The translations under genes and the position numbers were made by a program. 64,000 bases of DNA, taken from positions 28,655-92,654 of the forward strand of contig CAKJYJ010000009.1 in assembly GCA_918262735.1 (NCBI GenBank). Reading direction: 5' to 3'. Within the stretch, counting starts at the first letter, position 1; each line of letters starts with the position of its first letter. Shown piece after piece: positions 933-55,468 of this stretch. Source of the DNA: Clostridiales bacterium. Its GTDB lineage: Bacteria > Bacillota > Clostridia > Christensenellales > UBA1242. The notes under the pieces were generated by a model that was not told the origin of the DNA, made no database searches, and worked only from the letters and a program-made list of their open reading frames with translations.

Positions 933-1107
933 TAATATTTCACAGCTCTTTTTATTTTTTTACCCTTAGTTCTTATCGAAAATCAAATCCAAAATAGTGA
1001 AAAACAAAAAACTAAAAGCTAAGAGTGAAAAGTGAAAAACGAATAGTTAAGAGTGAAAAGTACAAACAAAAAAATCCTCACCAATACTGGTTCGGATTTG
1101 TTTTGTT

Positions 1108-1194
1108 TGGTGCAGGTGGTGGGACTTGAACCCACACGTTGTCGCCAACAAAGGATTTTGAGTCCTTCGCGTCTGCCATTCCACCACACCTGCA
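1108..1194 (-). tRNA. tRNA-Leu(CAA)
   Basis: Reverse complement GCAGGTGTGGTGGAATGGCAGACGCGAAGGACTCAAAATCCTTTGTTGGCGACAACGTGTGGGTTCAAGTCCCACCACCTGCACCA; long variable arm, anticodon loop CTCAAAA, encoded CCA. Confidence 0.93.
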
Positions 1195-7442: not shown

Positions 7443-7480
7443 ATAACACGTGTTTTAGAAGAACTAAAGAGTCATAGTTG

Positions 7481-7580
7481 GCGGCAGGGGTTTTCCCCGA
7501 CCCATAAAACACAAATTTAATTTAATATCAATTATGGACTTTTAGCTCTAGACGGCAAGAGCAACTAACTCTTAATCAGT
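7481..7580 (+). repeat. Degenerate direct copy of the tRNA-Lys(CTT) leader plus 5' half of the tRNA
   Basis: GCGGCAGGGG...CCCGACCCATAAAACACAAATTTAATTTAATATCAATTATGGACTTTTAGCTC...CTCTTAATCAGTG matches 7649-7746 closely, but the D-loop is altered and the tRNA 3' half is replaced. Confidence 0.85.
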
Positions 7581-7703
7581 GCACGACGCGTTTGGAAAAG
7601 TTGCCTGTGGCAAGTTTTTAGCCAAAGCGTGCAAATGCGCCAACATTTGCGGCAGGGGCTTCCCCCGACCCACAAAACACAAATTTAATTTAATATCAAT
7701 TAT

Positions 7704-7812: not shown

Positions 7813-7931
7813 GGGACCCCGAAAAGTATTTGCATGTCAAAACTTTTTGGGGAGAGGAAAAACTGTGCGAAAAGTAAAATTTTGCCATAGCAAAATGAAG
7901 CCAAAAGCACGAGTTTTGACGAGGCTCGAAC
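7813..7931 (+). repeat. tRNA-tail structured element, copy 1
   Basis: Stem CCCCGAAAAGT (7817-7827) / ACTTTTTGGGG (7842-7852), then GAGAGGAAAAAC, second stem ATTTTGC (7879-7885) / GCAAAAT (7890-7896), TTTTGACGA; ends in GGCTCGAAC, reverse complement of the tRNA-Lys T-loop. Confidence 0.75.
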
Positions 7932-7951
7932 CAAAGTTTTAACAAACATTA

Positions 7952-8059
7952 GGGCTCCCGAAAAGTTGAAAAACTTTTTGGGAAGAGGAAAAGCCTTGCG
8001 TAAAGCAAAATTTTGGTTTGTCAAAATGAAGCCTAAAGCAAGTGCTTTGACGAGGAGCC
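7952..8059 (+). repeat. tRNA-tail structured element, copy 2
   Basis: Stem CCCGAAAAGTT (7957-7967) / AACTTTTTGGG (7972-7982), AAGAGGAAAAGC linker, second stem ATTTTG (8010-8015) / CAAAAT (8022-8027), CTTTGACGA. Confidence 0.75.
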
Positions 8060-17862: not shown

Positions 17863-17938
17863 GGTTCACTAGCTCAGTTGGTAGAGCACTTGACTTTTAA
17901 TCAAGGGGTCGCGGGTTCGAACCCCGCGTGAGCCACCA
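17863..17938 (+). tRNA. tRNA-Lys(TTT)
   Basis: GGTTCACTAGCTCAGTTGGTAGAGCACTTGACTTTTAATCAAGGGGTCGCGGGTTCGAACCCCGCGTGAGCCACCA; anticodon loop CTTTTAA. Confidence 0.95.
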
Positions 17939-18194
17939 ATTTTTATTTAACCACAGGGTTTTGTTTAATTACTCTGCCCTTGATTAAAAGATATTGGGGT
18001 CCTTAAAAACGCATGTTTTTGGGGTGAGGATGCACCGAATGTTAAGCGATGGTTTTACAATATGGAAAAACCAAGCCATAAATTCGTGGGCAGACGAAAT
18101 CAAGGGGTCGCGGGTTCGAACCCCGCGTGAGCCACCAATTTTTATTTAACCACAGGGTTTTGTTCAATAACACTGCCCTTGATTAAAAGATATT
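17899..18194 (+). repeat. Direct duplication of the tRNA-Lys(TTT) 3' half plus downstream segment (17899-17995 and 18098-18194), flanking tRNA-tail structured element copy 3 (17996-18097)
   Basis: Two ~97-nt copies of AATCAAGGGGTCGCGGGTTCGAACCCCGCGTGAGCCACCAATTTTTATTTAACCACAGGGTTTTG...CTGCCCTTGATTAAAAGATATT at a 199-nt period. Insert stems CCTTAAAAAC (18001-18010) / GTTTTTGGGG (18015-18024) and TGGTTTT (18050-18056) / AAAACCA (18067-18073). Confidence 0.88.
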
Positions 18195-23455: not shown

Positions 23456-23652
23456 GGATTCGAACGTGTGCGTTAAAAAAAGGCGGGTGTAAAAATAGGG
23501 CTCCTAAAAATAGCAGGCATTCATGCCGAAATTTTTGGGAAGAGGAAAAACGGAGCGACATAGTAAATTTGCGGAGCAAGTTACAAGAGTGAAAGTTTTG
23601 ACGAAGCATCAGGCGTGATAGCTAAGCGGAGCGAATCCCTCCTGGAGCACCA
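23456..23652 (+). repeat. tRNA-tail structured element, copy 4, ending in a direct copy of the tRNA-Arg 3' end
   Basis: Begins GGATTCGAAC (reverse complement of the Arg T-loop GTTCGAATCC); core stems CCTAAAAAT (23503-23511) / ATTTTTGGG (23531-23539) and AATTTGC (23566-23572) / GCAAGTT (23576-23582); ends CGAATCCCTCCTGGAGCACCA (23632-23652), identical to 23378-23398. Confidence 0.88.
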
Positions 23653-23814
23653 AACAAAATAAATCCGAACCGTAAGGTGAGGATTTTTTGTTTGTACTTT
23701 TATTTCTTATTTTTTCACTTTTCTTTCTTCTTTAAATGTTCTGATTGTTTTTGAAATAAAAAATAAAGGCAATTATGATTCAAACGTGTGCGAAAAGCAA
23801 AAGGCACAGCTCAG

Positions 23815-47974: not shown

Positions 47975-50900
47975 TTAAACAATTTTCGTGTAAACATAAT
48001 ACTCTTTACCATCAATTTCTGTTTTTTCAGATTTTGTGTACTTGCTTGTGTCATTCAAGAATGTGTTTGTGTTAGCTTCATCATCAACCACACTTGCAAG
48101 AACATTAATTGTTGTTGCGCTCGAAAGTAAATTCCCCGCATGATTGTATGAAGTTCCCACTGCCGCTTTGTATATATTTGCACTATCAATTGTAACAGTT
48201 TTTAGGTTGGTGCAATTATCGAATGCATAATTACCTATACTTGTTACACTGCTTGGAATTGTTACGCTGGTTAGCCCGCCACAATCATAGAATGCTCTAT
48301 ATGCAATACTTGTTACACTATTTGGAATAATTACACTAGTTAACCCGCTGCAACCCCTAAATGCATCACTTCCTATGCTTGTTACTCCTTCTGGGATTGT
48401 AATGCTTGTTAACCCACTGCAACCAAAGAATACAGCACCAACTATGCTTGTTACACTGCTTGGAATTGTTACGCTGGTTAGCCCACTACACTTATAGAAT
48501 GCAGAGTCTCCTATACTTGTTATGCTGCTTGGAATTGTTACGCTGGTTAGTCCAGTGCAACCATAAAAAGCACGTGCCTTTATTTCTGTTATTGTGTTTG
48601 GTATAGTAAGATCCGTTACTTCTTCTTCCCCTATATATAAATGATGGGCATAATATAGTGGATTGGCCGTATAATCCCAAAACGATATTTCTAGCCAGTC
48701 TTCTATGCTTGAAGTTACAACCTTTGTTAGCCCACCGCAACCATCGAATGCAATGTTTCCTATGCTTGTTACACTGCTTGGAATGGTTACGCTGGTTAAT
48801 CCAGTGCAACCAGAGAATGCAAAACTTCCAATACTTGTTACGCCTTCTGAGATTGTAACGTTGGTTAACCCACTGCAACCATAAAATGCATATGCCTTAA
48901 TTTCTGTTATTGTGTTTGGAATAGTAAGTTCGATTACTTCTTCCTCCCCTATATACAAATGATGTGCATAATTTAGTGGGTTAGCATAACTAGAATTACT
49001 AAATGATATAGAAAGCCAGCCTTCTATGCTTGAAGTTACAACCCCTGTTAGTCCACTGCAATTCTTGAATGCATCACTTCCTATGCTTGTTACACTGCTT
49101 GGAATTGTAACGCTGGTTAGCCCACTGCAACCCCTAAATGCATACATTCCTATACTTGTTACTCCTTCTGGGATTGTAACGCTTGTAATACTGGTGCAAC
49201 CATCGAATACATAGGCTTTTATTGTTGTTATTGAGTTTGGTATAACAAGATTTGTTACAAGTTCTTCTTCCGTGCCATTCGTTACGTATAATTTATGAGC
49301 ATAACATAGTGGGTTTGCGTTAGACGTAAATGAAATTTTAAGCCAATCTTCAATGCTTGGAGTTACAACCTTGGTTAGCCCACTGCAATTAGCGAACGCC
49401 TCGTATCCTATGCTTGTTACACTGCTTGGAATGGTTACGCTGGTTAATCCAGTGCAACCATAGAATGCAGAACTTCCAATACTTGTTACACCATTTAAAA
49501 TACTAACACTGGTTAAACTACTTAACCCGATAAAAGCATTTGCTTTTATATTGGTTATTGTATCAGGTATTACCACCTGCGTTAATTGTTCTTCTTCTGA
49601 ACCATTTAATATGTATAGTTTATGAGCATAATTTAGTGGATTGGCCGTTGAATCCCCAAACGATATTTTTAGCCAGTCTTCTATGCTTGGTGTTACAACC
49701 TTTGTTAATCCTGTACAACCGGCAAATGCAGAACCATACACAAAGGTGATAGTGTTCGGAAATTTAATGGTTTCAATTTCAGATTTGTTTTTAAACACTT
49801 CGGTTGATGATGTAATAATCTTTGTTCCATCGGGTACAACAACATTTGCAGAATTTCCAGTATATTTTATTAGTTTTGTACCATTATATATAAATTCTGA
49901 ATTCCCCGTGTTTAATTGCTTGCCAGTGGCAACATCTGCCTTCATTTCCTCAACTGTGAAATTCCAATAAACCGTTAAACTAGCACTGCTTGATTTATAA
50001 TTCCAACGTGTACTCCAATTGTCAGGCCTACTACTTACGCCTGTATAAATATTTAAATTATCATCGCAATTTAAAAACGGATAAACTAAAGATGGAGATA
50101 AATTTGATGTGGAGATACTTGTCACTGAGTTAGGCACATATACACTTTTTAAAGATGTGCATCCCGAAAAGGATAATTTACCAATAGAGGTTACACCATT
50201 AGGAATAATAACACTTTCTAGTGAAGAACATCCACTGAATAACCCATAAGCAATTGACTTTATTTGAGAACCCTCATCAAATTCAAAAACTTTAAGTCCA
50301 CTAAAGTCTGCAAATGCGCAATCACTAACACTTTTAACCGTACTAGGTAAATAAAAATTTTCTAATGATGAACAACCCGAAAAAGCATATTTTCCAACGC
50401 TTTGTAAATTTTCTGGCATAACTATATTGGTTAAATTAGTACAGCCATTAAATGCCCTTTCACCTATTGACGTTAATTGTGAATTATTAGCAAATGTCAC
50501 AGTTGTTAAACCACTGCAACCATTAAATATAGATGTCATCAAACTTTTTAATGTACTAGGAAGTTGAACGCTTTTAATAAATGTTTTTTCGCCAAAAGTA
50601 CTGTTACCCCCAGTAATTTCTGTAACCAATTCTGGAACTATAATATTTTCTGAGGCTCCAATATAACTTGTAATACAAGAACCCAAAAATGTAAATTCCG
50701 GATAATCTTTTGGAAGATTTATTATTTGTAACATTTTTTCAACAGAGCATTTCCATTCTACTCTAAATTTGGTTGTGGATGTTTTATTACACCAATATTC
50801 ACCCCACCCTTCTGGTTTAGTTTCTGCATCGGTGTATAATATTAAATTAGAGCAATTTCGGAAGGTTGAAAACGATGCAATATTTGCTTCAATTTCATTT

Positions 50901-55111: not shown

Positions 55112-55218
55112 GGGGCTCGAACGTGTGCGTTAAGAAAAAGTTGCCAGTGGCAAGTTTTTTAGCACCAGGCGTGATAGCGAAGTGTAACGTAGCGGAGCGA
55201 GCCCCGTCTTTCGCTCCA
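55112..55218 (+). repeat. tRNA-tail insert (type 1) ending in a second copy of the tRNA-Gly 3' end
   Basis: Starts GGGGCTCGAAC (reverse complement of the T-arm GTTCGAGCCCC), contains AAAAGTTGCCAGTGGCAAGTTTTTTAGC, ends CGAGCCCCGTCTTTCGCTCCA (55198-55218), identical to 55031-55051. Confidence 0.88.
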
Positions 55219-55278: not shown

Positions 55279-55468
55279 GGGCTCGAACCGTAAACTTTAA
55301 GGGCTCCCGAAAATAGCAGGCATTTATGCCGAAATTTTTGGGAAGAGGAAAAACCGAGCGTTAAGGTAAATTTGCGGTCAGCAAATTACAAAAGCGATAG
55401 TTTTGACGAAGCACCAGGTGTGATAGCAAAGTGTAACGTAGCGGAGCGAGAATCCGTCTTTCGCTCCA
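55279..55468 (+). repeat. tRNA-tail structured element, copy 5, ending in a third copy of the tRNA-Gly 3' end
   Basis: Starts GGGCTCGAAC; stems CCCGAAAAT (55306-55314) / ATTTTTGGG (55334-55342), inner GGCAT/ATGCC, and AATTTGC (55369-55375) / GCAAATT (55381-55387); ends CGAGAATCCGTCTTTCGCTCCA (55447-55468). Confidence 0.88.

Follow-up and report, generated by a model that had tools for sequence, protein, structure and literature searches.

CGTC-tagged repetitive extragenic palindromic sequences (REPs), a group that includes Neisseria dRS3 and Rickettsia RPE-4/6, are defined by a single stem of 8-9 bp and a total length of 20-40 bp (Di Nocera 2013; PMC3733652). Those of H. neapolitanus lie within 41-bp palindromes that are not seen without the REP, and the words Firmicutes and Clostridi- are absent from the paper that describes the group (PMC3733652). 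By its GACG end, this is the nearest published group to the subject of the present work, element B, a folded repeat of gut bacteria present in five copies in a 64,000-nucleotide stretch of the genome of a Clostridiales bacterium (assembly GCA_918262735.1, contig CAKJYJ010000009.1, positions 28,655 to 92,654, forward strand), the whole of which we call the window. No description of element B was found in the literature. A preliminary description of the window had presented these copies as an unrecognised structured element peculiar to tRNA genes; the first part of that reading stands and the second does not, because element B is a dispersed mobile repeat that is often located in tRNA genes and also in protein genes and other repeats. 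Here, we examine its fold, its distribution and the anatomy of its insertions and, on balance, favour the view that it is a non-autonomous mobile repeat whose insertion employs, or else generates, a 12-nt complement of its target.

Results

Architecture and Fold of Element B

Element B is a folded repeat of about 107-112 nt, composed of a tag, a hairpin (P1), a linker and a helix (P2), with the consensus GGGGN-CCCC[G/A]AAAA...TTTTTGGGGAGAGGA...GACGA. The five inserts reported earlier as sharing one architecture are all present and fold as described; with core boundaries set by a covariance model, they are as follows (family A is an unrelated repeat treated below).

7813..7922 (+), copy 1, 3' of tRNA-Lys(CTT), with a GGGA tag, the P1 hairpin and the P2 helix up to GACGA (core 7817-7922)
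7952..8053 (+), copy 2, 3' of tRNA-Lys(CTT) (core 7956-8053)
17996..18097 (+), copy with a GGGGT tag at 17996-18000, lying precisely between two 97-bp direct copies at tRNA-Lys(TTT) (core 18001-18097)
23498..23604 (+), copy inside a family A element, 3' of tRNA-Arg(TCT) (core 23502-23604)
55301..55409 (+), copy inside a family A element, 3' of tRNA-Gly(CCC) (core 55305-55409)

Each core is preceded by a GGGN(N) tag, and in all five copies P1 reads CCC[G/C]AAAA...TTTTTGGG and is followed by the linker AGAGGA and by an interrupted P2 with a GACGA end. Nearly all copies of the element, here and elsewhere, terminate in GACG[A/C/T], with a stem adjoining. The pattern used to scan named genomes fixed GACGA and part of P1, so that these residues are not independent evidence there; the covariance-model search of relatives did not force GACGA.

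The folding z-scores of the window copies are, in order, -5.0, -4.5, -1.8, -2.1 and -3.8. Among eight copies from the bacterium's own genome, both sides have changed in 15 of the 28 pairs (shuffles, 6.9 +/- 1.6; 0 of 500 as high). In an alignment of 85 distinct sequences from other bacteria, fitted to the covariance model, such changes affect 25 of the 28 pairs and amount to 445 double-change cells, about four times the 115 +/- 12 of shuffled alignments, while slid structures reach just 44-86. The compensatory changes claimed for the stems thus exceed both kinds of control, and this covariation supports selection on a folded single strand, either RNA or single-stranded DNA. Because G.T pairs outnumber A.C mismatches (112 versus 21, or 56 versus 21 without one fixed column), the folded strand is the one that reads ...GACGA. 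The failure to recognise a family was also confirmed: in the window Rfam returned nothing but tRNAs above the gathering score, relaxed thresholds gave no credible match over element B, and no group I or group II catalytic core was detected in it by the Rfam models. The core has no terminal inverted repeat and its flanking duplications measure about 25-140 bp, features that set it apart from miniature inverted-repeat transposable elements.

Genomic Distribution

The covariance model, run on the own genome and its relatives, revealed further copies. The own genome (1.26 Mb) holds ten, five in the window and five elsewhere; nine of these are located at tRNA genes or at contig ends with tRNA-derived arrays, and the tenth is in the 3' end of gyrB (C5:245741). 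Altogether 23 of the 60 genomes searched (own included) contain the element, with a maximum of 37 copies per genome, mostly away from tRNAs, and a pattern scan of named genomes together with the covariance model located it in many further Clostridia (Oscillospiraceae, Ruminococcus, Eubacterium and others) and in Paludibacteraceae of the Bacteroidales; in the search of the whole phylum with the model, the candidates scored per genome were too few for an estimate of prevalence. One of the congeners matches the MAG 'Clostridiales bacterium isolate SIG417', whose copies of element B are the same. A restriction to the 3' flanks of tRNA genes, as first proposed, is therefore nearly true for the own genome and false for element B as such. 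A tRNA-specific regulatory RNA was rejected because copies are found in gyrB and at a distance from tRNAs.

Viral contigs gave 98 pattern matches; the covariance model confirmed none of the 80 listed loci on which it was run, and phage records yielded just two weak partial matches. No larger unit between matched duplicates was seen to hold a recurrent gene, as an autonomous version with an open reading frame would, and there is no conserved neighbouring gene besides the integrase and relaxase genes of a few mobile elements.

Duplications and Empty Sites

Comparison of left with right flanks revealed direct repeats in 60 of 129 copies, many of which begin at the base right after GACGA. At tRNA-Lys(TTT) both duplicates consist of the 3' part of the tRNA and the terminator region, and the left one contains a stretch antisense to the target junction (in all such junctions below, a stroke marks the insertion point, p):

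17899..17995 (+), left duplicate (D'), from just past the anticodon of tRNA-Lys(TTT) to CCA, then the terminator region and the target-complementary segment
17977..17990 (+), CCCTTGATTAAAAG, reverse complement of the target junction CTTTT/AATCAAGGG (17894-17907)
18098..18194 (+), right duplicate (D) of tRNA-Lys(TTT), starting exactly at the 3' end of element B

Three congeners have at this position an intact tRNA-Lys(TTT), its terminator region and tRNA-Leu, with neither element B nor the complement. At several tRNA loci the left and right copies agree base for base as far as CCA or a few bases past it and are unrelated beyond. The right copy of tRNA-Leu(CAG) is followed by the same terminator as the empty gene of a congener, and hence the added part is the left copy, its terminator and element B. 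At gyrB the duplication comprises the final 19 codons, with the frame kept in the left copy, and the site is empty in two congeners. In many copies the duplicate flanking element B restores the 3' end of the interrupted tRNA or gyrB, and insertion of the element accounts for the partial tRNA copies that stand beside tRNA genes in these genomes. Since the duplication rebuilds the tRNA 3' end and the terminator upstream of the element, it also explains a placement noted from the outset and borne out here, downstream of tRNA promoters yet past terminators. Insertion at p that brings in a fresh 3' part, and insertion behind the gene of a unit that ends in a copied 3' part, lead to the same final sequence. 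That the duplicates extend to the gene end can be understood from gene survival, since other outcomes would be lost.

A Complement of the Target beside Element B

A simple closing stem between the flanks of element B was tried and rejected, being significant in part of the copies only, and it prompted a test for complementarity to the junction. This covered all 31 non-redundant copies for which a duplicate could be detected and used the last 40 nt before the element alone. In 17 of the 31, these 40 nt contain a run of 12-17 nt that is an exact reverse complement of the target before insertion, and all 17 span p. The run is exactly 12 nt in ten copies, mostly 6+6 about p, and falls between 8 and 11 nt in none; the same-sense control reached a maximum of 7 nt. 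Runs of at least 9 nt occur in 55% of true pairs and in 2.7% of cross-locus pairs, some of which share the same kind of tRNA (Mann-Whitney p about 1e-9). Examples are GCGTCTGCCATT, facing the target AATGGC/AGACGC; GGACTTGAACCG, facing CGGTTC/AAGTCC; and GCTCTTCTTTTTACG, facing CGTAAAAAGAAG/AGC at a locus that resembles the end of a protein gene. One further segment, seen by eye in the nested array at tRNA-Lys(CTT), is probably the complement of the target that belongs to copy 2:

7923..7932 (+), GGCTCGAACC, reverse complement of the T-loop GGTTCGAGCC of tRNA-Lys(CTT), between both copies of element B

Tandem duplication combined with a short inverted insertion and filler is a recognised outcome of template-switching repair. 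Replication or break repair of this kind could have produced the 12-nt inverted copy, the filler (element B) and the tandem duplication together when a broken end was rejoined to the sister chromosome, and it would suit both the seemingly random spacers and the like layout at unrelated cores (family A and a tRNA-Ile element). However, the exact 3' end of element B, the 12-nt minimum and the 6+6 centring at many loci in two phyla look enzymatic, and the copies are full length and covarying; we consider such an origin quite unlikely.

Candidate Mobilizing Enzymes

Y1 transposase genes (PF01797) were found neither in the own genome (G000) nor in the copy-rich relatives G001 and G015, and reverse transcriptase genes were absent from G000, G001, G015, G022, G037 and G054. 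PF00078 occurs in 3 of 20 genomes tested, no copy-rich one among them, and the IS110 transposase (PF02371, a DEDD recombinase) is absent from all 20. All three enzymes were rejected as mobilizers supplied by the own genome, being found neither there nor in G001 and G015; the mobilizer would consequently be encoded apart from element B, have been lost, or belong to a different class.

An unlinked HUH/Y1 or other transposase, acting on single-stranded DNA and aiming at palindromes, is what one would expect if element B were a REP-like palindromic repeat akin to the CGTC-tagged REPs, the 12-mer then being part of the target palindrome. The GACG end is the reverse complement of the CGTC tag and stands beside a stem, element B is frequently nested in other hairpin repeats, and the CGTC REPs likewise have no dedicated transposase and in H. 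neapolitanus sit in their 41-bp palindromes (PMC3733652). We nonetheless regard such an origin as unlikely: apart from the lack of Y1 genes in G000, G001 and G015, the inverted segment is missing from the congener tRNA-Lys sites, so that no palindrome was there beforehand, and the complement extends over the side of the target that does not adjoin element B.

The geometry of the guide and of the 3' junction, and a fold on the sense strand, also recall a putative reverse-splicing-like ribozyme, whose guide would pair on both sides of the junction and whose 3' end would be joined to the downstream part. With a core of just ~107 nt devoid of any group I or II signature in Rfam, a variable distance between guide and core and no reverse transcriptase in the six genomes named, this is very improbable.

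Family A and Other Associated Repeats

Family A has an unrelated structured core of ~70 nt, GTGTGCG...GCACCAGGCGTGA...GGAGCG, located in duplicated tRNA 3' ends. Its site within the T-loop is GTTC/GA, flanked on the left by an antisense T-stem, and it occupies the T-loops of five tRNAs of the own genome (Glu, Gly, Leu and two Arg) in a layout like that of element B, with about 6-7 target-specific nt.

55112..55218 (+), family A without element B: GGGGCTCGAAC (antisense T-loop/T-stem), the core GTGTGCG...GGAGCG and a duplicated tRNA-Gly 3' end
Further family A loci: L020 (three copies at tRNA-Glu), L016, L030 and window 23457

Partial 5' tRNA copies lie upstream of tRNA-Lys(CTT), Arg(ACG), Arg(TCG), Ser(GCT) and Leu(AAG) (window 7478-7700, L016, L023, L024, L030); the inserts of these arrays have the opposite orientation, some with duplicated leaders, and form a mirror image of the downstream arrays. 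A terminator-like repeat, AACAAAACAAATCCGAACC..GGTGAGGATTTTTTTGTTTG, follows several different tRNAs (window 1000-1113 on the minus strand, 23647-23752, L027, L030) and is kept behind orthologous Leu tRNAs in congeners. A long, diverged direct-repeat array at window 48210-49730 is probably inside a repetitive protein gene.

At L089, L063 and L085, element B is found within longer hairpin repeats (CCTCCCCCTACC..GGTAGGGGTGTTTGAC; GCCTTCTC..GGTGGATGAGTTTCGACA) that are multicopy in G001 and G054. In two mobile elements it directly precedes AGCGAGCAG..TACTCCCAAAG, the presumed origin of transfer, with a mobC-like gene downstream, and elsewhere it stands between integrase/excisionase and relaxase-like genes (both arrangements, with genes named by eye: L236 1320-1421, L296 985-1085, L044, L048, L055, L252). 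Mobile elements of these kinds are a plausible vehicle for its spread.

Discussion

Starting from the observed fold and strand, the dispersal, the exact right boundary, the duplications, the p-spanning complements and the empty sites of congeners, we suggest how the non-autonomous repeat could be inserted. Its working form would be a folded single strand of either RNA or DNA, whose GACGA end would be joined to the precise point p, presumably by a protein supplied in trans. The product often bears, just ahead of the tag, a 12-nt stretch that is the reverse complement of the target and has p at its centre, usually 6+6; this 12-mer might pair with the target at insertion or be copied from it at that moment. 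The inserted unit, commonly 170-250 nt, adds a new 3' part of the interrupted gene, plus a terminator in tRNA genes, and the gene thereby survives. Pairing of a guide across p would account for the 6+6 centring, and copying of the target during insertion for the presence at every new site of its own perfect 12-mer; guiding and copying could be one single process.

Several points weigh against this scheme. The mobilizing enzyme was not found, and the pairing, transcription and movement of element B are putative. Most copies have no detectable duplicate, and 14 of the 31 that do have one are without a 12-mer, whether through age, nesting or another route. The 12-mer is separated from the tag by 0 to about 11 nt, a variability that suits a rigid guide poorly, and fresh perfect 12-mers at new sites favour copying over a guide that chooses its target. 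Duplication and 12-mer may also be by-products of repair.

A broader proposal, which we advance only tentatively, is an undescribed form of DNA mobility in which no recognised transposase takes part and which several unrelated cores (families A and B) of Clostridia and Bacteroidales would have in common. A folded nucleic acid would carry a 12-nt antisense guide, made anew for each target, insert in the middle of the pairing and rebuild the gene. Were the 12-mer to direct insertion, element B would be a guided mobile element of small size for which no protein is known; were it copied at insertion, it would be a record of each target, and the joining mechanism could be tested by sequence alone.

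Comparison with Known Systems

Like the GTAG-tagged REPs and REPINs with their REP-associated tyrosine transposases (RAYTs, of the Y1 type), element B is a non-autonomous hairpin repeat dispersed in intergenic DNA, but it has no GTAG tag and several genomes rich in it have no Y1 genes. With the islands that integrate into tRNA genes it shares the interruption of the gene and the supply of a substitute 3' end; its unit is, however, of ~200 nt and without an integrase, and its duplicate fits each host gene, even gyrB. The bridge RNA or seekRNA of IS110/IS1111 elements is also a structured non-coding segment with complementarity to the target on both sides of the insertion point, whereas element B has no recombinase gene and its complement is one contiguous antisense 12-mer. 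The internal guide of group I introns resembles the 12-mer in being contiguous and complementary to both sides of the junction, and in both cases the 3' end would be joined downstream; element B is far smaller and, according to Rfam, without a group I core, and any splicing of it is putative.

The CGTC-tagged REPs are, like element B, short structured extragenic repeats with a CGTC/GACG tag by a stem and without a dedicated transposase, and some of them also reside in palindromes that are not seen without the repeat. Element B differs in having two helices, 107-112 nt and a GGGGN tag, which place it outside their size range and single-stem definition, and in its gene-restoring duplications and junction-spanning 12-mer. 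If this 12-mer directs insertion, it would offer a candidate answer to how repeats of the CGTC type have spread while lacking a transposase of their own.
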